Below are positions 38,248 through 53,203 of a DNA stretch of 64,000 bases, piece by piece. Positions within the stretch are counted from its first letter, which is position 1. Each line of letters begins with the position of its first letter. The stretch comes from Chloroflexota bacterium. Its GTDB lineage: Bacteria; Chloroflexota; UBA11872. The position numbers and the translations under genes were made by a program. The notes under the pieces are model-generated. The model did no database searches. It was not told the origin of the DNA and saw nothing but the letters and a program-made list of their open reading frames with translations. The stretch spans positions 62,001 to 126,000 of the forward strand of contig JAPOWQ010000025.1 in the NCBI GenBank assembly GCA_026707585.1. Direction: 5' to 3'.

Positions 38248-40725
38248 ATGAACCAGGTACTCACCAGATTCAGTTCGCTGGTCACGGCTCGCCCCTGGAT
38301 CACCCTTCTCGTCATAGTCATCCTTACCATCGCCCTCGGTGCCGGTGGCGCCGTTCGCGCTCCGCTCCCATCAACGGCGGAAACGCTGCCTGACGACAGC
38401 CCTATCGCCGACGCAATGGACGAGATCAACGAGCTGTTCGGCGACCACGGTGAAATCAGTGCCTCGACTCTGCTTTTCCGGGGCGATGCGCTTACGCCGT
38501 CCGGGCTGGTCCAAATGGACGCCCTGCTCAATGACATAGCCAGCGACCCGGGTGTGCAGCAACTGCTGGCCCCCGAGAATCCGGTCTTTTCGCCCGCCAC
38601 GCTGATCAAGTTCGCGCTTCAGGTCCAGAGCCTTGAAGCGGTCACGCAGGCCCAGATCGATGCGGTGCGCGTACTTCCGGAAGTCCAGCCGCTCCTCGCC
38701 CTCATGACTGGAACTGACGCGGACGGCACCAAGATTGCGATCGGCAACATTCGCCTGCTCGATACCGGCGACGAGCGAATTGCGAACGCTGAACGGACGA
38801 TCAACGCATTGGCTGCCGCCTCGGACGGACCGCTGCAGGCAACCAGCGTGTCGTTCTATGTCATTGAAGACGCCTACAAGGCCGGTATCGAGGAGGGCAT
38901 GCTGCCGCTGATCGGGGTGGCTTTCCTGCTCATTGCGCTGCTCCTGCTGCTCTTCACGCGCGCGCTGTCGGATATGTGGCTGACGCTCGCCGGCCTCCTC
39001 ACCTCCATCATCTGGATCATCGGCGCCGAAGGCTGGCTGGGCCCGAACGCGCTGGGTCTGATCGGCCCACCGAACTCGCTGACCTCACTGGTCCCGATCA
39101 TCGTGATCGGGCTCACGGTGGACTATGCGATCCAGACCATCTCGCATTACCGCGAGCAGCGGGTCGAGGGTCAGGACGTGCTCACGGCCATTCGCCGGGG
39201 CCTCAGCCACGTCACGGTTCCCCTGGTCCTGGCCGCCGTCACCACCATCGTGGGCATGCTGGCCAGCCTGTTCTCCCCAATCGGCATCGTTCGCGACTTC
39301 GGAGTTGTCGCCGGCATTGGTGTCGGCATGAGCCTGATCGTCATGCTGACGCTGGTCCCGGCCAGCCGGGTAATCATTGACCGGCGGCGCGAGGCTCGCG
39401 GCAAGCTGAAGCCCGCCCGCCCCATTGTCAATGCGCTGCCGGGCATCCAGGGATTGGCCGGCGTGATCGGTCGCAGCGTGACCCGCTGGCCCCTGCCGTA
39501 CATCCTCGCCGTGCTCGCGATCACCGTGGGACTGGGGATTGCGGCCCGTGGGCTGAAGTCGGAATTCAGCATCAAGGACATCCTCCCCAGGGGCGGCGCC
39601 GTGCACGCGGACATGGACACCCTTGAGGCGGCCGTCGGCGGCTCGGCCGAGATCACCAGCGTGCTGATCAAGGCCGAGGCGACGCAGACCCGCACCCTCC
39701 TCAATGTGCAGGACCTCACGAACGCCTTTGAAGACGAGACCCGCCGTCCGCCCACCGCGGCAGGTCCCATCCAGGCCTCGTACGAATTGCTGGTGCGTGA
39801 CTGGACCACCCAGAGCGGCCAGCCCGGCGACAAGTACGATCCCGAGATCGCGGCCCTTTTCCAGGAGGCTTCGGCGGGGGTGCGACTCGACCCGCACTTG
39901 ATGCAGGAAGTCCTCGACCGGATTGAGGCCCAGGACCCCGCGCTCTCACGCCTGCTCGTCAACGACCCGCAGGGCATCGACACCATGCTGCTTCAGTTCC
40001 AGAGCTATGGCGGCGATACCCAGGCAACCAAGGTACTGCAGCAGGAAATTGAGGAACTCTGGGCCGGCGACGACGACGCAATTACGGCAACGTCGCAGAG
40101 CATCATCTCGATCACCGTCACCGACTCGATCACCGCGCGCCAGACGGAAGCCATCGCCACCACGGTCGCGGCGGCATTGAGTGTCCTGGCCATCTTCTTC
40201 TGGCTGACGCTTCGCCAGCCGGCGCTGGCGATCGTCGCCGTGGGTCCCATCGTGCTCGTGCTCATCTGCGTGCTTGGAACGATGGCGCTGCTCGGAATCC
40301 CCTACACGATCATTACGTCGATCATCACGGCTCTCTCGATCGGTATCGGCGTTGACTACACCATTCACGTCATCCATAGATACCGGGAGGAATTCGCCCG
40401 CCTGCGCAACCCGGAGGAAGCCGCCGTGCGGACGCTGGCCACCACCGGATCGGCCCTGTTGGGATCGGCGATGACTACGGCCCTCGGCCTGGGCGTACTG
40501 GCGGCGTCGCCCCTGGCCGGGTCGCAGCAGTTCGGCATTACCGCGGCGATCACCATTGCGTACTCGCTGATTGTTGCCGTCGTGTTGGTGCCGCCGGCCA
40601 TGACGATCTGGGGCGCCTACCAGAACATGCGTCTGCGCTCCATGGTCGAACGCGAATGGACCGACCTCGACATCGCCATCGACGACGTGTACCGGCGCCA
40701 CGAAGAGGAACAGGCCTCGGCCTAA
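38248..40725 (+). CDS. RND/MMPL-family transporter (candidate sterol or lipid exporter)
   Basis: An 825-residue protein with the two-fold RND plan: one helix (ARPWITLLVIVILTIALGAG), a periplasmic domain, six helices (from GMLPLIGVAFLLIALLLLLF), a second single helix near residue 415, a second periplasmic domain and six more helices. Repeated motifs VIGLTVDYAIQTISHYRE and SIGIGVDYTIHVIHRYRE hold the TM4/TM10 Asp used for proton coupling. It belongs with the hydrophobe/amphiphile MMPL and HpnN-like exporters rather than AcrB. It precedes the sterol methyltransferase by 190 bases on the same strand; a role in moving sterols, as for BstA or HpnN, is inference. Confidence 0.85.
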   Translation: MNQVLTRFSSLVTARPWITLLVIVILTIALGAGGAVRAPLPSTAETLPDDSPIADAMDEINELFGDHGEISASTLLFRGDALTPSGLVQMDALLNDIASDPGVQQLLAPENPVFSPATLIKFALQVQSLEAVTQAQIDAVRVLPEVQPLLALMTGTDADGTKIAIGNIRLLDTGDERIANAERTINALAAASDGPLQATSVSFYVIEDAYKAGIEEGMLPLIGVAFLLIALLLLLFTRALSDMWLTLAGLLTSIIWIIGAEGWLGPNALGLIGPPNSLTSLVPIIVIGLTVDYAIQTISHYREQRVEGQDVLTAIRRGLSHVTVPLVLAAVTTIVGMLASLFSPIGIVRDFGVVAGIGVGMSLIVMLTLVPASRVIIDRRREARGKLKPARPIVNALPGIQGLAGVIGRSVTRWPLPYILAVLAITVGLGIAARGLKSEFSIKDILPRGGAVHADMDTLEAAVGGSAEITSVLIKAEATQTRTLLNVQDLTNAFEDETRRPPTAAGPIQASYELLVRDWTTQSGQPGDKYDPEIAALFQEASAGVRLDPHLMQEVLDRIEAQDPALSRLLVNDPQGIDTMLLQFQSYGGDTQATKVLQQEIEELWAGDDDAITATSQSIISITVTDSITARQTEAIATTVAAALSVLAIFFWLTLRQPALAIVAVGPIVLVLICVLGTMALLGIPYTIITSIITALSIGIGVDYTIHVIHRYREEFARLRNPEEAAVRTLATTGSALLGSAMTTALGLGVLAASPLAGSQQFGITAAITIAYSLIVAVVLVPPAMTIWGAYQNMRLRSMVEREWTDLDIAIDDVYRRHEEEQASA

Positions 40726-40915: not shown

Positions 40916-41980
40916 ATGCGATTCCCGCTGTCAAGGGAGCTTGCGCAGCTCCGCAAACTATCCAAGGGGCTGAAGGCCGCCTACCGTGGGTCGGATCCGC
41001 AGCGGCGCGTGACGCACTTTGATGGATGGACGCGCAGAGCAGCGGCAGAGGGCGCCGGCGCGGCGGACTACGACCACGCCCAAACCGTCAGGGAGTACTA
41101 CGACCTTTGCAGTGAGTTCATGGTGTTCGGGTGGGGCGCCTCACTCCACTTCGCGCCGCTGTCGCCCCACGAGAGCCTGGAAGAATCCAAGATCCGGCAC
41201 CAGCGACTGATGATTGCCAAGCTGGGATTGTGCAAGGGCATGACGGTGATCGACGTCGGCTGCGGAATCGGCGGCCCCATGCGTCGGGTCGTCCGCGAGG
41301 CTGGCGTCAGAGTCATCGGGGTCAATAGCAGTGAGGTCCAGCTGGACAAGGCGAAAGCGCTAAACGTTGAGGCGGGACTCGACCACATGGTCGACTACCT
41401 GGCGTGCAGCTTCATGGACATGCGCGCCATCGCGGACGACACCTGCGACCGGGCCTATGCAATCGAATCGACCTGCCATGCGCCGGACAAGGCGGGAGCC
41501 TTCGCCGAGATCTACCGCGTGCTGAAGCCCGGCGCCCTCTTCTGGGGACAGGAAATGTGCCTGACGGAGCGGTTCGATCCTGGCGACGACCGGCACCGGG
41601 CCATCAAGCAGGAGCTCATGCACGGCATCGCGCTCAAGGACATCGCGACGATGGATGAGGTGAACCGAGCCCTTGAATCGGCGGGCTTTCAGGTCATCGA
41701 GGGTAGCGACCGGGCCGTTGCGGAGAACAGTCCAACCACTCCCTGGTATCAGCCAATGCTGACCCGGCGGAGCACGCTGGGTAACGCCCTGCGCAGGACG
41801 CCTCTGGGCCGCAAGGCGTTCATCGAGGCATCCCGCCTGGCCGAAGTGTTGCGGGTGTTTCCGAGGGGCTCCGCCGACGTCGTTGGCCTGATGGATCGCA
41901 CCGCCAACGCTTATGTCGACGGCGGCAGGACCGGGATATTTACGCCCTTGTACTGTTTCCTGGCACGCAAGCCTCGCTAG
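40916..41980 (+). CDS. Sterol C-24 methyltransferase (SMT/Erg6) homologue
   Basis: A 354-residue SAM-dependent methyltransferase. Residues 61-80, YYDLCSEFMVFGWGASLHFA, match the sterol-binding region I of plant and fungal SMTs (YEYGWGxSFHFA). Motif I is VIDVGCGIGGPMRRVVREAG (111-130). AYAIESTCHAPDKAGAFAEI with YRVLKPG corresponds to the YAIEATCHAPxxxxCYKEIYRVLKPG block. SPTTPWYQPM and GIFTPLYCFLARKP match the conserved end. SMTs add a methyl to the C-24 double bond of the sterol side chain. An AT-rich segment at about 40830-40875 is a likely promoter. gamma-Tocopherol or CFA-type methyltransferases lack region I, so SMT is favoured. Confidence 0.85.
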   Translation: MRFPLSRELAQLRKLSKGLKAAYRGSDPQRRVTHFDGWTRRAAAEGAGAADYDHAQTVREYYDLCSEFMVFGWGASLHFAPLSPHESLEESKIRHQRLMIAKLGLCKGMTVIDVGCGIGGPMRRVVREAGVRVIGVNSSEVQLDKAKALNVEAGLDHMVDYLACSFMDMRAIADDTCDRAYAIESTCHAPDKAGAFAEIYRVLKPGALFWGQEMCLTERFDPGDDRHRAIKQELMHGIALKDIATMDEVNRALESAGFQVIEGSDRAVAENSPTTPWYQPMLTRRSTLGNALRRTPLGRKAFIEASRLAEVLRVFPRGSADVVGLMDRTANAYVDGGRTGIFTPLYCFLARKPR

Positions 41981-42019: not shown

Positions 42020-44047
42020 TCAGACGTTGAGTGCGCGCCGCTGTTCGGCAATGCGGAACTTCAGCTTCTTACTCGGCTTCATCGAGGGCAGCGGGTTGAA
42101 CCCGAGCTTGAAGTTCGGCGGGGACACTTCGAGCGTGAAGTGATGCGCCACCAGGAGCACGTTGACGGCCAACTGCAGTTCCATCCACCCCACGCCAAGG
42201 CACCGGTGCGTACCCAGCCCGTACGGGGCATACCCGGAACTGCGATGCTCGTTGCGCGGAGGCAGATAGCGGTCGATATCGAATTTCAAGGGGTCGGGGA
42301 ACACGTCGCTCATGTAATGCGCGGCCGTCTGGGCAATGTAGACCTGTGACCCGATGGGTATTCGGTAGCCCTCGACCACGCACGTATTCATCACGGTCCG
42401 CAACGACACCGGGACGATCGGGTACACCCGCAAACATTCCATCAGGAATCGGTGCGTGACGTCGATCGCTTGCGGTCTGAAGGCCCCCGCCTCAGGATCG
42501 CCGTCGGCGAACAAGGCGTCGGCTTCGGCACGGATTTCCTTGTAGAGATCCGGCTGCGACGCCATGGCGTACAGCACGAAGCTGAACGCATCGCCAAGGT
42601 AGACGCTGGCAATCAGCGCGGCTGAGAGGACGAAGCGCAGATTCGTCTCCGGGACGAACTGCGGATCGCTGGCGTGCAGGCTCAGCAGGTCATCCGCCAG
42701 GTCCCGCGGACTTCCAGCCCGCTGGGCCGGCGTATGCCCGCTTTGAACCTTCTCCACCAGTTGGTCCAGGATCTTCAGCCGGCGTTTCATGCTCGGCGTC
42801 TTCAACATGAACTTGGGTAGGACTTTCAGTATGTGAACGTTGAGCGCCCGTTCCTTGAAGACCGTCAGGTCGTCAAAGATATCCTGGGAATCAATGCTGA
42901 TCATCAGCGGCGAGAGTTGCGCATTTATCATTCGCCGGCACATGCGCGTGGCGGGGTAGGAATCTCCCACCGTCCAGTCCGCCATATGAGTCCGCGCATC
43001 CTTGTAGACTTGATCCAGTTGCCCCATCAATCTTCCGCGGGAATACGCTGGACCCAACGACTTACGAAGCCGGAAGTGATCCGCGCCGTCCAGGGACGGC
43101 AATACGCCCGAGGCGCCGTAAACCTTCTCGAAGTCTGAAAAATAGTCCTTGGTTCGGAGGTACATGCGCCCGTTCCGATGGACCCAGCGATTCGTCTCAG
43201 AACCAGCCAGGAAGATCATTGGATCCTGAAAGGGAGGGCGGAGCTCGAACACCGGGCCGTATTCTTCGGCCAGATCCGCGAAGAGCGCGGGAAAATTGCC
43301 GCTGCGAAGATTCCGATTAAACACCAACTTGCGCAGCGAGGCAACCGGAATCTTCTTGGTCAAGGCTGAACGTTGAAGCAATGGTCCGGCGAGACTCTCG
43401 GAAACCGCGGCGGCGATGGCCCGGCCGATCAATTCCATGTTGCAAATGAAATTAATGCGCTCCTCATCCTGGTCTTCGAGCTGGAACATGAAGCGAAATA
43501 CATCGCATGTGTTGACCAGGCAGATGATGATGACATCGCGCGGATCAGGAATCTCGTTGTTGAAGATGGCTTTACCGATGCGCGTCCTGACGAATTGAGC
43601 CGCCGTGCCTTCGGTGGGACCGCTTGAGAGTTCAGACTGCCAGGCAGTCCGGGACAGCGTCCAGAATTCACCCTCGTGGTATTCCAGGATCTTGCGCTTG
43701 ACCAGTCGGTCTAGTGTGGAATCTACGATTGATTCCGCACGCGGGGCCAGACGTTCAATCCAGTATTGAGCGTTGCGCTGATCGGAGGCGTCGGCAATAT
43801 CCTTCAGGATCGAGTCGAGGATTGGATTGCCTGTATCTGAGGAGTCCAGGAGAAACAAGGAGTCCATGTCCGTGTCGATACGTGATAAGAGTGAGAGTTC
43901 GGCAAGAACCGCGCCCACGACCGCGCAGTTCAGGTGCCAGCCGGGCACCTGGTAAAAGTAGCCGGACTCCTCATTGAGAAGCATAAGCACGAGCTCGTCG
44001 GACAAGGTTAGCTGCTGGGTTTCGACGGAATCTGAAGTCAGGGTCAT
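42020..44047 (-). CDS. GPP34 (GOLPH3/VPS74-like) domain fused to cytochrome P450
   Basis: A 675-residue fusion. Residues about 10-220 are a GPP34 domain: LTLSDELVLMLLNEESGYFY, VVGAVLAELSLLSRID, LDRLVKRKILEYHEGEFWTL. In eukaryotes this fold binds phosphoinositides at membranes. Residues about 240-675 are a P450: FRLRKSLGPAYSRGRL, K-helix E-C-L-R (537-540), and the haem ligand Cys616 in YGLGTHRCLG, where Tyr replaces the usual Phe. The I-helix (ALIASVYLGDAFSFVLYAM) lacks the standard A-G-x-D-T. It is convergent with the sterol methyltransferase, 39 bases apart. An inverted repeat lies just upstream, and GGGGAG precedes the ATG by eight bases. The substrate is probably a sterol or other terpenoid, by context. 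Confidence 0.82.
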   Translation of the reverse strand: MTLTSDSVETQQLTLSDELVLMLLNEESGYFYQVPGWHLNCAVVGAVLAELSLLSRIDTDMDSLFLLDSSDTGNPILDSILKDIADASDQRNAQYWIERLAPRAESIVDSTLDRLVKRKILEYHEGEFWTLSRTAWQSELSSGPTEGTAAQFVRTRIGKAIFNNEIPDPRDVIIICLVNTCDVFRFMFQLEDQDEERINFICNMELIGRAIAAAVSESLAGPLLQRSALTKKIPVASLRKLVFNRNLRSGNFPALFADLAEEYGPVFELRPPFQDPMIFLAGSETNRWVHRNGRMYLRTKDYFSDFEKVYGASGVLPSLDGADHFRLRKSLGPAYSRGRLMGQLDQVYKDARTHMADWTVGDSYPATRMCRRMINAQLSPLMISIDSQDIFDDLTVFKERALNVHILKVLPKFMLKTPSMKRRLKILDQLVEKVQSGHTPAQRAGSPRDLADDLLSLHASDPQFVPETNLRFVLSAALIASVYLGDAFSFVLYAMASQPDLYKEIRAEADALFADGDPEAGAFRPQAIDVTHRFLMECLRVYPIVPVSLRTVMNTCVVEGYRIPIGSQVYIAQTAAHYMSDVFPDPLKFDIDRYLPPRNEHRSSGYAPYGLGTHRCLGVGWMELQLAVNVLLVAHHFTLEVSPPNFKLGFNPLPSMKPSKKLKFRIAEQRRALNV

Positions 44048-44064: not shown

Positions 44065-44099
44065 CCTAACCATGTTCAACGTGCTAAACTATGGTTAGG
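44065..44099. promoter_or_regulatory. Long-armed inverted repeat upstream of the GPP34-P450 gene
   Basis: CCTAACCAT (44065-44073) and ATGGTTAGG (44091-44099) are perfect 9-base arms with a 17-base AT-rich spacer, starting 18 bases before the P450 ATG. A centre-to-centre spacing of 26 bases puts the two arms on nearly the same face of DNA. It is a strong candidate operator for a dimeric or tetrameric regulator. Confidence 0.55.
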
Positions 44100-44299: not shown

Positions 44300-45628
44300 G
44301 TGAGGGGGCGTAGAGCGCTGCCAGGCGTGTGGGCCGCTGCGCTGATCGCCGTCATTGCGTTCTGGTGGGGCGCGTACGTGGCACCACAGTTGGTGAGCAT
44401 TGCCTTCCCCGGCGTTCTGCCCACGGATCGAATTCCCGCGTGGCTCGATGCCGAGGAGAATGACACGCTGACAAACTCCCTGTCCGCCGCGCTGCTGGCT
44501 GTGGCTGCCGCACTCCTGGCGGCAAACGCTGGCCGCGCATTTCGGGCATCTGCCAGCCGGATCGGCACCACCGGATGGGCCATCCTTGCGGGCGTCACGC
44601 TGCTGGTCTGTATCGCTGAATTAACCGAGGCGCATATCGCCGCGCCTGAAGCTCTTGGGTATGTGGTATTTGGGCGACAGGCGTTGCTGCCTTCGTGGCC
44701 CATCCTGCTAGCTCCGCTGATCGCTGCCTTCGTGGCTCTTATGGTGTTGTTTATGTGGCGAGTCGATCACCCGCCATCGGTTCGTCGGTGGCTTGGCCTG
44801 GGATTCGGCCTCTGGATCATGGTCTTGGCGCACGAGGTGATCCAACCATACGCATTGCTCAGGTTCGGATCGTCACTGCCACGAGTCCTCGAAGAGACAT
44901 TGGAAATAAGCGGCACGATGTGTCTAATCGTTGCCTCCATGGCAACGCACAAGGGCGCGACGCCCGCGCCGCGCTGGCGTAACCCGTTCGTACGATCCGT
45001 GCTGTTGGTTGCGGGCCTGAGCGCAATCGCCGTTGCATATCTCTACCACGCTCCGGTGTTCGACACGCGAGCACATTCGGCGCCTGGGACGTTCCAGATC
45101 ATGCTCCAGGACCAGGGATCGATAACGCAGGAACTCGGTGGGCCCCGGTTTCCGACGGATCGCATCGACGTTCGTATGGCAACGCGGGATCCGAACGGCA
45201 CGTCGACCACGGTGGCCTGGCGCATTCGTAGCGACGATACGCCAATTCGTGAGGGGCATGTGCAGGTCAAGAGTCAACCGCAGCACCTGTCGATGTACCA
45301 GCTGATCTTCGCTCCGCTGATTCAAACCGCGGACTAGGATCTGAGTCTTCAGTTGGTTGCCGAGGCTTCCGAAGGCGCTCACCTGCATATTGGGGCGACC
45401 AAGCTCAACTCCGACGATGGGCTCCGCTTATGGACGAACGGCGACATTCAACCGCCTGGCCACCGCATTGATTTCGTCGTGTTCAGCACGCCCGAGCCGA
45501 CGCAAGCGAAACTTGCCGCGCTGTGGCATGCGGTGTCCGGGGATTGGCGATACCCGGTAACGATGCTTTATTTTGCCGTGAGCCTCGTGCTACTCGTGTT
45601 TACACCGCTGGTTCTCGTGCGCTCCTAA
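44300..45628 (+). pseudogene. Polytopic membrane protein interrupted by an in-frame amber codon
   Basis: One continuous frame of 443 codons containing a single TAG at 45335-45337 (residue 346). Upstream are seven or so hydrophobic helices (GVWAAALIAVIAFWWGAYVA; WPILLAPLIAAFVALMVLFM; WLGLGFGLWIMVLAHEVIQP) and then a beta-rich extracytoplasmic part. After the TAG the same frame continues DLSLQLVAEASEGAHLHIGA and ends with a last membrane helix, YPVTMLYFAVSLVLLVFTPL. The downstream part thus completes the topology. Options are a recent nonsense mutation (one base from GAG, CAG or AAG), a sequencing error, or readthrough. No family recognized. It lies between the P450 and Rieske genes of the sterol region. 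Confidence 0.65.
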
Positions 45629-46031: not shown

Positions 46032-47135
46032 ATGGAATCCCAGGAAGCGGGCGGGCAGGCAGGACTGCGGGTGATGCGACCTGAAGAGGCGACAGCAGCC
46101 CGACGCCGACTACCCTTGAGCAATCGACTGCCGTCCCCATTCCCCGAGGGTTGGTACTTCCTCGCGACCCGCAAGGCCGTGGAGAAGGGCGGGCTGATCC
46201 AAAAGACATGGATGGGCGAGAACATCGTCATCTGGTCCGACGCTGAGGGCCGCATCTGTGTCGCCAAAGCCATCTGCCCCCATCTGGGCGCCGATCTCGG
46301 GCCTGCCGCAGGTGGCCAGATCTGCGAAGGTCGACTTGTCTGCCCGTTCCATGGCTATGAGTTCGACGTCACCGGCCAGTGCGTCGCCACCCCCTTCGCA
46401 CCAGCGCCCAGGACCGCCAAATTGCGAGTCTTCGAAACTCACGACATCCATGGCCTGATCTTCGCCTGGTGGGGTGTCGACGGCCGCCCGCCGCAATGGA
46501 CGCTGCCAACCGAGCCGTTGGAGCAGGACGGCTGGTGCGACTACGAGATCGATACGCTTCGCTTTCCCGGCCATCCCCAGGAGACGACCGAGAACTCGGT
46601 CGACCTGGCCCACCTGCGCTATGTCCACGGCTACGACAACGTCGACCGCCCTGAGCGAATGTCGGTGGATGGCCATCGTCTCCTGAGCAACTTCAACTTC
46701 AGGCGCGTTCGTACGATCGCAAAACTCGCCAGACTGACCTTTAGCGTCTCAGCCAAAACCCACATCTACGGACTCGGCTACTCGTTCGTCGACATCCGCG
46801 AGCACTCCATCGGCATGAACATGCGGCTGTGGGTCCTTGCCACGCCCGTCGACGGCAAGCTCATCGACATGACACTGGTCTCGCAGGTACGCGAGATCCG
46901 AAATCCCAGGCGCCTGTTGGTCGGCCTGGGATTCCTCCCGCCAAAGCTTCGCGCCCCCCTCATCAACAAGTTCATGGCGCTTCAGCAGAGAGAGGATGTG
47001 CTGCAGGACGTGGTCATCTGGGGGCGCAAGCAATACACCAGCCGGCCCCGCCTCTGCCGCTCCGACGGCGAGATCATGCCCTTCCGGTACTACTGCGCGC
47101 AGTTCTATCCCGAACCCGGCAACGGCGCCCCGTAG
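46032..47135 (+). CDS. Rieske non-haem iron oxygenase, Neverland/DAF-36/KshA/SdmA-like
   Basis: A 367-residue oxygenase. The Rieske cluster is bound by C82-x-H84 in ICPHLGADLGP and C104-x-x-H107 in LVCPFHGYEFDVTG. The catalytic iron site is in TTENSVDLAHLRYVHGYDNV (D191, H194, H199). LPSPFPEGWYFLATRKAVEK at the N-terminus and the layout fit the sterol/steroid branch that includes cholesterol 7-desaturase, KshA and the bacterial C-4 demethylase SdmA. An internal ATG at 46074 is an alternative start. A reductase partner is not adjacent. Given the neighbours, a sterol ring (C-4 or C-7) reaction is the leading guess; exact regiochemistry cannot be read. Confidence 0.8.
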   Translation: MESQEAGGQAGLRVMRPEEATAARRRLPLSNRLPSPFPEGWYFLATRKAVEKGGLIQKTWMGENIVIWSDAEGRICVAKAICPHLGADLGPAAGGQICEGRLVCPFHGYEFDVTGQCVATPFAPAPRTAKLRVFETHDIHGLIFAWWGVDGRPPQWTLPTEPLEQDGWCDYEIDTLRFPGHPQETTENSVDLAHLRYVHGYDNVDRPERMSVDGHRLLSNFNFRRVRTIAKLARLTFSVSAKTHIYGLGYSFVDIREHSIGMNMRLWVLATPVDGKLIDMTLVSQVREIRNPRRLLVGLGFLPPKLRAPLINKFMALQQREDVLQDVVIWGRKQYTSRPRLCRSDGEIMPFRYYCAQFYPEPGNGAP

Positions 47136-47179: not shown

Positions 47180-48535
47180 CTACGCCTTCCTGAACCCCAA
47201 GCCGTACATGATGCTCCCGTAGTAGTTGAACGCCCGCCTGGCTTCCGCGTTGCTGAACGGGTAGTCGGCCCCTATCTGCCGCGCCGTGGCCAGGCCGCTG
47301 ACAAAGCAGGTCTCCTGGCTGTTGACCAGCGTGTGCGCCCCGCAGTGCCAGGTTCGCCGCCTGCCCTGGATGAACTGGAACAGGTTGATCAGCAACGCCA
47401 TGTGCTTCACGTCATGCACGATGTGCTGAAACCACCACCGCTTGATGACCTTGGCGTCATCGATGGGACTGACCGCGTTGTAGGTCACCAGGCACGGCTT
47501 GTCCGACCCGCTTGCCCACGGCTGCTGGTTATGCATGATGTACGTGATTTCGTAGTTGTCCGGCCTGGCCCCGTACTGCTCGATGTGGTTGCTCCGCGTC
47601 TCCAGCGGCTTCGCTTCGTTCTCGGGTAACACCGAGGCGTCCCAGTGCACCACGGCATGGTTATGCAGCTCGCTCTCGTAGCGTATCGATGAGAGCATGA
47701 AGCGTTCCAGCATCGTCGGCTTGTCCAAGATCATCAGCGTCTGGTTCGCGTTGCACGCAAGGATCACGTCGTCAAACGTCTCGCGTTCACCGGCCTCGTC
47801 TTCAACCTCCACGTGTGACGCCCGCCGATATACCCTTCGCACAGGTCGGTTGAGATAGATCTTGTCTCGAAAGCCGTCCGTCAGGTTCTCGTAGATGCGG
47901 CGCGTGCCCCGGTCCCATGTCTGCATCGGCGTTGAGCGTTCGATGTCGAAGAATTCCAGGTACCGGCTGAAGAGCGCGGCCGGCATGTCGAACACGTTTG
48001 TCGCCATCAGGAAATTCACGAACATTGGCTTCAGGATCTTGTACCTGAAGTCCCCCGAGAATCCGCCCAGGTTCAGCACCGTCCCCATGCTGATGTAGTT
48101 GAACGGGTTCAGCGCATTTAGCAACTTCGACTGCGAACGCGTCAGCCAGCCAATCCCATGCAGTCGACGCAAGAGTCGCTGGAATTTCCTGATCTCGGGT
48201 TGCAACTGCTCTCGTATGTCGGAGTCGAAGTCATGGGCGTACACGCGGCCCTGGTACTTCACGCTGTAGCTGAACTTGGTGTCGATCAGCTCAATGCCAA
48301 ACGTCTCCATCAACAGCAGGATGTGGTGATAGACCGACGGGATACACGCGGTTACGGAGATGTCAAAAGGAATCGAGCTACCGTCGTCCTGCCGCATGTC
48401 GGCGGTAATCGCGTTGCCGCCAACCTGTGCGTTGGCTTCGAACAGCCGGAAGTCAAAGCGATCGGGATGCCGATGCAGCGCCCAGGCGGCGCCCAGCCCT
48501 GCAATGCCCCCGCCAACAATGGCAATGCGCCTCAG
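47180..48535 (-). CDS. FAD-dependent amine-oxidase-like oxidoreductase, probable CTG start
   Basis: About 451 residues. The Rossmann motif RRIAIVGGGIAGLGAAWALH and the FEANAQVGGNAITADM loop lie upstream of the first ATG (48397), so the true start must be earlier. The frame is open only back to a TAG about 90 bases upstream of 48525 and contains no ATG, GTG or TTG there. A CTG at 48533-48535 follows GGGGGAG at four bases and is the best candidate. The C-terminal FAD motif is CFVSGLATARQIGADYPFSN. It falls in the flavin amine oxidoreductase group (PF01593-like); a desaturase or reductase role on sterols is possible from context only. Confidence 0.75.
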   Translation of the reverse strand: MRRIAIVGGGIAGLGAAWALHRHPDRFDFRLFEANAQVGGNAITADMRQDDGSSIPFDISVTACIPSVYHHILLLMETFGIELIDTKFSYSVKYQGRVYAHDFDSDIREQLQPEIRKFQRLLRRLHGIGWLTRSQSKLLNALNPFNYISMGTVLNLGGFSGDFRYKILKPMFVNFLMATNVFDMPAALFSRYLEFFDIERSTPMQTWDRGTRRIYENLTDGFRDKIYLNRPVRRVYRRASHVEVEDEAGERETFDDVILACNANQTLMILDKPTMLERFMLSSIRYESELHNHAVVHWDASVLPENEAKPLETRSNHIEQYGARPDNYEITYIMHNQQPWASGSDKPCLVTYNAVSPIDDAKVIKRWWFQHIVHDVKHMALLINLFQFIQGRRRTWHCGAHTLVNSQETCFVSGLATARQIGADYPFSNAEARRAFNYYGSIMYGLGFRKA

Positions 48536-50799: not shown

Positions 50800-51939
50800 A
50801 TGATTGATTGGCTCGGAATCGAACACCTCTTTGAGCTTACCCCGACGGAAGCGGTTCTCGGCTTCTTCACCCCGCTGATTATCTTTGCCGTACTCTTTGT
50901 CGTGCAGCTCATCCTTCCGGGAATCCGCGTTACCGGCTACGTCACTAATCCCGAGACCGGCACACCGCGCAACTACCGGCTCAACGGACTCCTGGTGTAT
51001 GCAATTGCGGTCATCGTCTGGGCGTTCGAGCTCACTGGAATGCCGCGTGAGTGGTTCTATCAGTCCTCCGTCTACGCCGTCGCCGGCGGAACGGTGGTCG
51101 TCGCCATAGCTACCCTCATAGCCGTCTTCAGCCAGCCGAAGGACGAAACCGACAACCCCATTGCCGCGTTCTGGCTCGGGCGCGTCCAGGAACTCTCGTT
51201 CTTGAAGGAGCGCATCGACCTGAAAATGTACTTCTACGTCGTCGGCGGAACCATGTTTTCGCTCAACGCCCTGTCCGCGGCAGCCTGGCACCTGGAGCGC
51301 TTTGGCGAAAACGCCAATCCTGGGGTTTTCCTGGTGGCCGCGTTCTATACGTATTACGTAACGGACTACTTCATCTTTGAACGTGTCCAACTCTATACCT
51401 TTGATGTGATCTACGAGAAGCTCGGCTTCAAGATGTTCTGGGGCGGCCTCATGGTCTACGGCTGGGTCTACATCCTCCCCCTCTGGGGCATGGCCGCGCA
51501 TCCCAGCCCTGGATTCTCCACGGTCTGGACGTACGTCTGGCTCATCGCGGCGGCGGCCGTGTACTTGACCGGGTGGGTGATTTCCCGTGGCGCCAACATG
51601 CAGAAATACACCTTCAAGCGCTGGCCCGATCGCAAGTTCCTTGGGCTCATCCAGCCGGAGTACATCCAGGCCGGCGACCGCAAGATCCTGGTCAACGGCT
51701 TCTGGGGCGCGTCCCGCCACATGAATTACCTCGGCGAGTGGTTCCACTCCTCCGCCATCGCGCTGGCCTTCGGCCACTTCACCAATCTCTGGGCCTGGAC
51801 CTACTTCATCTGGATCGTCACCCTCTTCGTCATCCGCCAGCGCGAGGACGACCACTACTGTGCCCAGAAGTACGGCCCTGAGAAGTGGGCCGAATACCAG
51901 GCCCGCGTCAAATACCGCATCTGCCCCTGGATCTACTGA
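50800..51939 (+). CDS. ERG4/ERG24-family sterol reductase, copy 1
   Basis: A 379-residue membrane protein with eight to ten helices. Family hallmarks are RNYRLNGLLVY (residues 57-67, the YxLNG motif), ERIDLKMYFYVVGG (the IDLKM block), ILVNGFWGASRHMNYLGEWF (296-315, the LLxSGxWGxxRHxNYxGE motif) and DDHYCAQKYGPEKWAEYQAR followed by VKYRICPWIY at the end. These NADPH-dependent enzymes reduce C14, C7 or C24(28) double bonds of sterols (delta14-reductase, DHCR7, ERG4). Which bond is reduced cannot be told from sequence by eye. A paralogue of identical length follows 124 bases later. Confidence 0.88.
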   Translation: MIDWLGIEHLFELTPTEAVLGFFTPLIIFAVLFVVQLILPGIRVTGYVTNPETGTPRNYRLNGLLVYAIAVIVWAFELTGMPREWFYQSSVYAVAGGTVVVAIATLIAVFSQPKDETDNPIAAFWLGRVQELSFLKERIDLKMYFYVVGGTMFSLNALSAAAWHLERFGENANPGVFLVAAFYTYYVTDYFIFERVQLYTFDVIYEKLGFKMFWGGLMVYGWVYILPLWGMAAHPSPGFSTVWTYVWLIAAAAVYLTGWVISRGANMQKYTFKRWPDRKFLGLIQPEYIQAGDRKILVNGFWGASRHMNYLGEWFHSSAIALAFGHFTNLWAWTYFIWIVTLFVIRQREDDHYCAQKYGPEKWAEYQARVKYRICPWIY

Positions 51940-52063
51940 GCCAAGACCTAGTGAGTACCGAAAGGCGTGCCGCCGACCCTGCGAGGAGAGGCTGGCCACT
52001 CATTGACCGCTTCCATCCTCGTCTCCATAATCGCTGCGGCACTGGAAGTTGGGGGAACCGATC

Positions 52064-53203
52064 ATGATTGAATGGCTGGGTATCGAACACCTTTTCGAGC
52101 TTTCCCCCACCGAAGCGATCCTAGGCTTCCTGACTCCGCTCGCAGTCTTCGTTGTGTTCTTCATCGCCCAGGTCGTTCTTCCGGCCCGCCGGGTTCCCGG
52201 CTACGTCATCAATCCTGAGACGGGGCAACCCCGCAACTATCGGCTTAACGGTCTCCTCGTCTTCATCATCGCCATCGTCGTATGGGCGACCGAAGTCACC
52301 GGCATGCCACGCGATTGGTTCTACCGATCCTCGGTCTACGCTGTGGCCGGGGGCACCGTATTCGCAGCGCTCATTGCACTCGTGGCCATGCTCAGCCAAC
52401 CGCGAGGCGAGATCAAGAATCCGCTGCATGCCTTCTGGACCGGCCGCTCCCTCGAGCACTCGCTGATCAATGAACGCTTTGATCTGAAGATGTACCTCTA
52501 CGTCGTCGGCGGCACCATGCTGGTGCTCAATGCCCTCTCAGGCGCCGCGTGGCACTACGAACGCTTCGGTGACAACTTCAATCCCGGCGTCTTTCTGTAC
52601 ACCGCGTTCTTCACGCTCTACATCTTCGACTACTTCATCTTCGAACGCGTCCAGCTCTACACCTACGACCTGATTCACGAAAAGCTCGGCTTCAAGTTGA
52701 TCTGGGGCGGACTCATCATCTACGGCTGGATGTACATCCTCCCGCTCTGGGGCATGGCCGTCTATCCGAACCCCGAGTTCCCGACGGCCTGGACCTACGT
52801 GTGGCTCATCGGAACGGGCCTGCTCCTCGTCTTCGGCTGGTCCATCTCGCGCGGCGGCAACCTGCAGAAATACTGGTTCAAGCGCTGGCCCGACCGCAAG
52901 TTCCTCGGGATCATCGAGCCCGAGTACATCCAGGCCGGCGACCGCAAGATCCTCTGCAGCGGATTCTGGGGCGCGGCCCGCCACTTCAACTACATGGGCG
53001 AAGGATTTGCCTGCTTTGCCATCGGCCTGTCGTTCGGTCACTTCACCAATCTGTGGGCCTGGACCTACTTCATCTTCATCGTCTCGCTGTTCACCTGGCG
53101 ACAATGGGACGACGAGGCGCACTGCGCCGAGAAGTACGGCGAGGAAAAGTGGGCCGAATACAAGGCCCGGGTCAAGTACCGCATCTGCCCCTGGGTCTAC
53201 TGA
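52064..53203 (+). CDS. ERG4/ERG24-family sterol reductase, copy 2
   Basis: A 379-residue close paralogue of the preceding gene: MIEWLGIEHLFELSPTEAIL versus MIDWLGIEHLFELTPTEAVL at the start, and the same RNYRLNG, FDLKMYLYVVGG, GFWGAARHFNYMGEGF and EKWAEYKARVKYRICPWVY motifs. The replacement of H-M-N-Y-L by H-F-N-Y-M beside the invariant Arg-His is in the cofactor/substrate region and could alter specificity. ATG 52064 follows GGGGGA; the leaders before both copies are also alike, indicating a tandem duplication that included the promoter. Confidence 0.88.
   Translation: MIEWLGIEHLFELSPTEAILGFLTPLAVFVVFFIAQVVLPARRVPGYVINPETGQPRNYRLNGLLVFIIAIVVWATEVTGMPRDWFYRSSVYAVAGGTVFAALIALVAMLSQPRGEIKNPLHAFWTGRSLEHSLINERFDLKMYLYVVGGTMLVLNALSGAAWHYERFGDNFNPGVFLYTAFFTLYIFDYFIFERVQLYTYDLIHEKLGFKLIWGGLIIYGWMYILPLWGMAVYPNPEFPTAWTYVWLIGTGLLLVFGWSISRGGNLQKYWFKRWPDRKFLGIIEPEYIQAGDRKILCSGFWGAARHFNYMGEGFACFAIGLSFGHFTNLWAWTYFIFIVSLFTWRQWDDEAHCAEKYGEEKWAEYKARVKYRICPWVY

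Follow-up and report, generated by a model that had tools for sequence, protein, structure and literature searches.

What can a bacterium do with a cytochrome P450 that is joined in a single frame to a GPP34 (GOLPH3/Vps74-like) domain? The question was raised by a 675-residue protein encoded in the window, i.e., the whole 64,000-nucleotide stretch of a Chloroflexota contig that was analysed (Table 1). Our interpretation, held with moderate confidence, is that the protein is a steroid-tailoring haem-thiolate enzyme of bacterial symbionts, mostly those of sponges, encoded in a sterol-modification cluster and acting on sterols that most of these genomes would have to import. The more general statement, that the fusion has a role in steroid chemistry, is likely to be right.

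The fusion is encoded by one open reading frame on the minus strand (the original prediction had named no strand) with an ATG start and no internal stops, preceded by a Shine-Dalgarno-like GGGGAGC sequence. Both Pfam domains scored well above their cut-offs (GPP34 PF05719, 104.9 bits against 29.1; p450 PF00067, 116.2 bits against 22.8), and the GPP34 profile fell within residues 10–220, where the original prediction had placed it, so that the one-frame combination of the two domains is real. The AF2 model of the whole protein (pLDDT 81.8, pTM 0.69) consisted of two folded domains separated by a weak linker at about residues 220–229, and with such a pTM the mutual placement of the domains is unsure. 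The GC content of the gene was 0.58 compared with 0.651 for the window. Just upstream of the start, at 44065–44099, an inverted repeat CCTAACCAT...ATGGTTAGG was observed, a possible candidate operator; this palindrome was not visible in the homologue upstream regions that were inspected.

Table 1. Coordinates of the fusion gene, its parts and the neighbouring genes in the window.
Feature	Position	Strand	Evidence or occurrence
GPP34-P450 fusion gene, 675 aa (P0001)	42020..44047	minus	ORF and Pfam
GPP34 domain, residues 15-217	43397..44005	minus	Pfam E 7.7e-30; fold match to GOLPH3/Vps74 only
Linker, residues 218-248, low pLDDT at 220-229	43304..43396	minus	Pfam limits and AF2
P450 domain, residues 249-645	42113..43303	minus	Pfam E 2.2e-33; Foldseek P450 matches
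Altered I-helix A-S-V-Y-L-G-D, residues 480-486	42590..42610	minus	alignment; one residue shorter than relatives
ExxR, E537..R540	42428..42439	minus	alignment
Haem loop YGLGTHRCLG with Cys616	42194..42223	minus	alignment
MMPL/HAE3 RND transporter, sterol-sensing-like domain	38248..40725	plus	in 27/81 loci
Sterol methyltransferase-like gene (Methyltransf_11 + Sterol_MT_C)	40916..41980	plus	in 32/81 loci
KshA_C-domain Rieske oxygenase, found together with the fusion	46032..47135	plus	domain match; locus counts
FAD amine-oxidase-like protein	47180..48397	minus	in 32/81 loci
ERG4/ERG24-type sterol reductase 1	50800..51939	plus	E 7.5e-40
ERG4/ERG24-type sterol reductase 2	52049..53203	plus	E 8.9e-38

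A family search covering one genome per species revealed, besides the window, 80 further loci, mainly on MAG contigs, with products 53–95% identical and mostly full-length fusions. Such a set, which includes single-contig chromosomes, ruled out an assembly artefact at the junction. The MAGs carried the labels Chloroflexota, Gemmatimonadota, Actinomycetota, Pseudomonadota, Latescibacterota, Binatota, Verrucomicrobiota and others. Because single-contig chromosomes labelled Longimicrobiales (L017), Binatia (L019), Dehalococcoidia (L021, L035) and Acidimicrobiales (L038) also carry the family, its spread over four phyla is independent of binning. The family tree tracked phyla only partly, with 14 changes of phylum label where the minimum was 8; this partial tracking and the low GC of the gene agree with transfer without amounting to proof. 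Identical fusion proteins were encoded in bins of two phyla (RHO2_bin_60, L026, and RHO3_bin_58, L027), probably due to a contaminating contig in one of the bins.

The P450 part has the features of its superfamily: the fold detected by Foldseek, the ExxR motif and the haem-loop cysteine, the latter two (E537/R540 and Cys616) as originally claimed. Cys616 was kept in 46 of the 47 aligned copies, the exception being L044, in which Arg replaces it in what is either a decayed gene or an altered protein. The acid–alcohol pair of the I-helix, usual in P450s but not universal and not decisive for membership, was absent from the window protein and from the family. The alignment to canonical relatives bore out the predicted loss and revealed that one helix residue was gone as well: the family reads A-S-[VM]-Y-L-G-D where the nearest relatives have A-G-x-D-T-[SV]-[SA], and acid and threonine were kept in all the relatives' motifs (AGADTS, AGLDTS, AGLDTV and GGMETA). 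Y483, G485 and D486 were invariant in the 47 aligned copies, and a pattern search found Y-x-G-D in 79 family copies.

These relatives were unfused Chloroflexota P450s (38–39%), a second GPP34-P450 subfamily (subfamily II, fused, 33–35%), another Chloroflexota family (32–34%) and one Planktothrix P450 (30%). In the tree, the window family formed its own 100/100 clade inside a 100/100 clade shared with them, away from the CYP51s of the same clusters. The suggested kinship with CYP51 was therefore not borne out; the separate clade and an I-helix unlike AG-x-H-T-S ruled out that the fusion P450 is a CYP51. Judged from these alignments, the clade-wide loss of the acid–threonine pair together with one I-helix residue, with canonical nearest relatives, appears to be a new point. 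Subfamily II (L142 8284–10290, L143 1272–3314, L144 8002–10035) has the canonical AGADTS motif and is followed by an Acyl_transf_3-type gene, and its L144 copy is interrupted by a stop. GPP34 may have been joined to a P450 once or twice: a single fused P450 clade is compatible with the data (AU p 0.157), and the GPP34 tree, which is unrooted, had three clades. The related Planktothrix gene (L103 5878–7248) lies on a plasmid between squalene cyclase- and squalene synthase-type genes; the plasmid search for the family returned distant unfused P450s only.

The surroundings of the fusion point to sterols. A core sterol gene, i.e., one for a Rieske/KshA-type oxygenase, a sterol methyltransferase, an SdmB-like dehydrogenase, a steroid 5α-reductase, an ERG24-type reductase or an oxidosqualene cyclase, was found within 8 kb of the fusion in 71 of the 81 loci (window included), which supports a sterol-type role, and in 74 of the 81 a gene of sterol type lay no more than two genes away. 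The counts, taken over loci that are not independent of one another, were 42 for the Rieske gene, 32 each for the sterol methyltransferase and the FAD protein, 27 for MMPL, 26 for the SdmB-like protein (E 1e-58) and 10 for the steroid 5α-reductase (E 2.5e-51). In NCBIfam, the SdmB-like protein was near SdmB (199 bits, below the cut-off of 600) and HpnA. The nearest PDB entry to the FAD amine-oxidase-like homologue in L003 was LkcE, followed by a 'putative aminooxidase'. The window genome has two Sterol_MT_C genes, and both its ERG4/24 genes lie inside the window. Alternatively, the sterol genes around the fusion could be passengers on a transferred cassette that the loci have in common.

A close association was found with the Rieske oxygenase that has a KshA_C domain. 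In a class panel of 41 genomes, it was present in 22 of 23 genomes with the fusion and in none of 18 without it (Fisher p 9e-11, a test that ignores relatedness). The same pattern held inside three genera (10/10 vs 0/3, 5/5 vs 0/1 and 5/5 vs 0/1). The sole exception, G288, is an 84% complete genome in about 510 contigs. The Rieske gene lay within 6 kb of the fusion in 21 of the 22 panel genomes, usually at 0.6–4 kb. Among genomes of the loci, a set that overlaps the panel so that some genomes occur under two handles, it was present in 27 of 28 over several phyla. The gene was absent from all three genomes tested that carry an unfused canonical relative. Evolutionary distances of the fusion and Rieske proteins were correlated (rho 0.58; cross-phylum 0.46), as were those of other cluster proteins. 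The Rieske protein is KshA/SdmA-like, with KshA the nearest by sequence at a distance too great for a function call. This near-perfect pairing seems to be a second new point. Between the two genes in the window, a GTG-started ORF of 345 aa without a Pfam match was noticed (44300–45337). Here, the fusion and the KshA_C match are 2.4 kb apart, whereas in eight genomes of the same genus the spacing is about 0.57 kb, which suggests an insertion in the window or a deletion in those genomes.

Since the Rieske enzyme is expected to oxygenate the steroid and the P450 is without proton delivery, the P450 is proposed to complete the step that the Rieske enzyme begins, a division of labour that we put forward tentatively, as it may well be wrong. 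The Rieske enzyme would activate O2 and oxygenate the steroid, and the GPP34-P450, with the proton-relay residues of its I-helix gone, would then carry out the next step outside the usual monooxygenase cycle. This could be either the attack of a ferric-peroxo species on an aldehyde (deformylation, with C–C cleavage) or a non-oxidative rearrangement. Precedents exist for both: P450s without proton delivery, such as threonine mutants, favour the aldehyde-cleaving ferric-peroxo state, and CYP74/CYP8A1-type enzymes perform chemistry that needs no O2 activation.

The function of the GPP34 part was considered separately. Its AF2 model alone (pLDDT 83) gave significant PDB matches to GOLPH3/Vps74 only (8 matches, best TM 0.73). 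In GOLPH3, we take W81, R90, R171 and R174 to be phosphoinositide-binding positions, a feature of eukaryotic members. According to a weak alignment (30 bits), W81 corresponds to W37, kept in 47 of 47 copies, and the arginines are replaced by V/I/A (R90), E/D (R171) and I/V (R174) in the family. The net charge of the domain was −19 in the window protein, with a family mean of −18.6 and a mean of −13.9 for stand-alone GPP34 proteins of the same class, and a transmembrane stretch was not seen. Docking to PI4P through conserved residues was not supported, with only the W81 equivalent surviving. The original suggestion that GPP34 may dock the oxygenase to membrane lipid is thus not supported as far as the known mechanism is concerned: with these positions not basic, a charge of −19 and no transmembrane stretch, docking to lipid head groups is unlikely, and the acidity argues against binding of anionic lipids. 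Membrane contact by other means, e.g., a hydrophobic hairpin, is possible. Most likely, the acidic domain is not a phosphoinositide anchor but an adaptor that connects the enzyme with a redox partner or with other proteins of the cluster; GOLPH3 itself serves as a protein adaptor for Golgi enzymes. Bacterial GPP34 proteins are mostly stand-alone, as had been stated, with 28 such copies in the class panel. One stand-alone gene (G000:C23:91373-91963; L001, L140) encodes a protein 36% identical to the GPP34 domain of the fusion, and most genomes of the class that have the fusion family also carry such a gene.

An ordinary sterol P450 monooxygenase, e.g., a side-chain hydroxylase or desaturase, with Tyr483/Asp486 or a substrate hydroxyl in place of the relay and with GPP34 only tethering it near the membrane, would fit the retained haem Cys, ExxR and overall fold as well as the sterol neighbours. 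Close to the lost pair, the invariant Tyr and Asp could take over the proton relay and so still permit ordinary monooxygenation, and threonine-less P450s that still hydroxylate exist (CYP107A1, CYP176A1). However, acid, threonine and a helix residue are all gone, in this clade only, and the absent basic residues and the charge of the domain speak against the tether. We consider this explanation rather unlikely.

The KshA-like Rieske protein and the transporters (MMPL and AcrB/HlyD/TolC) that adjoin the fusion in many loci could also be taken as signs that host sterols are broken down, detoxified or exported and that synthesis or tailoring is not involved. However, an HsaC/BphC-like ring-cleavage enzyme was not found in the window genome, none scored over the cut-off in 16 genomes, and the methyltransferase and reductases are building-type enzymes, which makes this reading distinctly improbable.

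The steroid-tailoring role that we prefer requires a source of sterol. Five of the 30 fusion genomes had an oxidosqualene cyclase (OSC), and in three of these five the OSC gene lay no further than 11 kb from the fusion. The contigs of the window genome (95.6% complete) encode a squalene-hopene cyclase (SHC) but no OSC and no P450 other than the fusion; the OSC–CYP51–ERG24 core was not found in this genome, and linked sterol-pathway genes were. No triterpene cyclase was found in 14 of the 30 fusion genomes, including two single-contig chromosomes of 4.1–4.2 Mb (L017/G008 and L019/G009), although in some MAGs the cyclases could have been lost with missing contigs. Given the lack of OSC in the window genome and the cyclase-free single-contig chromosomes, import is the simpler reading, and the bacterium of the window probably takes up its sterol from outside, with a sponge as the presumed source. 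A hopanoid or other home-made terpenoid as the substrate, as the SHC of many Chloroflexota hosts and the cyclase- and synthase-type neighbours of the Planktothrix relative might suggest, is very improbable against these cyclase-free genomes, the steroid enzymes in the neighbourhood and an adjoining cyclase that is an OSC (encoded by an epoxidase-OSC gene), not an SHC. The bin series other than jk18x we take, from their names alone, to be probable sponge symbionts; a literature search on the bin names returned nothing useful. The jk18x bins are Ircinia MAGs according to the text of PMC9531527, and judging by this series and the bin names the hosts of the fusion appear to be mostly sponge-living bacteria.

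A Rieske and GPP34-P450 pair that recurs in several phyla, mostly in genomes unable to make sterols, would point to symbionts editing the sterols of others, and would provide a definite enzyme candidate for symbiont-driven sterol change in sponges. Whether the unusual sterols of sponges come from the host or from its symbionts is a matter of dispute, and some of these compounds serve as the oldest animal biomarkers. The family is also a natural P450 clade with a fixed loss of the acid–threonine pair that can be compared with close relatives retaining it. One may speculate, with considerable doubt, that the P450 lineage gave up its own O2 activation and became paired with the Rieske enzyme, and that the two perform an undescribed steroid-rewriting step common to unrelated sponge symbionts, a possible source of odd sponge sterol skeletons.

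Among known systems, GOLPH3/Vps74 shares with the fusion the fold (TM 0.73), the Pfam family and the W81 equivalent, whereas the fusion has no R90/R171/R174 equivalents, is strongly acidic in this part and is joined to an enzyme. The GPP34+P450 order is shared by subfamily II, and its P450 part, like that of unfused Chloroflexota relatives, is 33–39% identical to the window family; however, both keep AGxDT in a full-length I-helix, and the sterol set was not among the neighbours seen, which for subfamily II were an acyltransferase gene and otherwise different genes. A literature search for GPP34 combined with P450, with most subscription papers outside its scope, returned nothing relevant. Sterol clusters of sponge symbionts were already known (Kelly 2022 PMC9531527, Mohanty 2020 PMC7074536, Brown 2023 PMC10070321); in the passages covered by the search, a GPP34-P450 was not mentioned. 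These papers describe an overlapping set (SMT, SdmA/SdmB types, ERG24, CYP51 and a fused epoxidase-OSC) and also suggest cross-phylum transfer. In contrast to those clusters, most fusion genomes are without the OSC core. True CYP51s keep AG-x-H-T-S, form a separate clade and stand as separate genes in the same clusters (CYP51-type genes of genomes G018 and G024; locus L136). CYP51 was among the top fold matches, and against PDB sequences the family profile scored highest (97.9 bits) with the Methylococcus capsulatus CYP51 (PDB 6mi0/6mcw), which is likewise a bacterial sterol P450 with an extra fused domain, in its case a ferredoxin.
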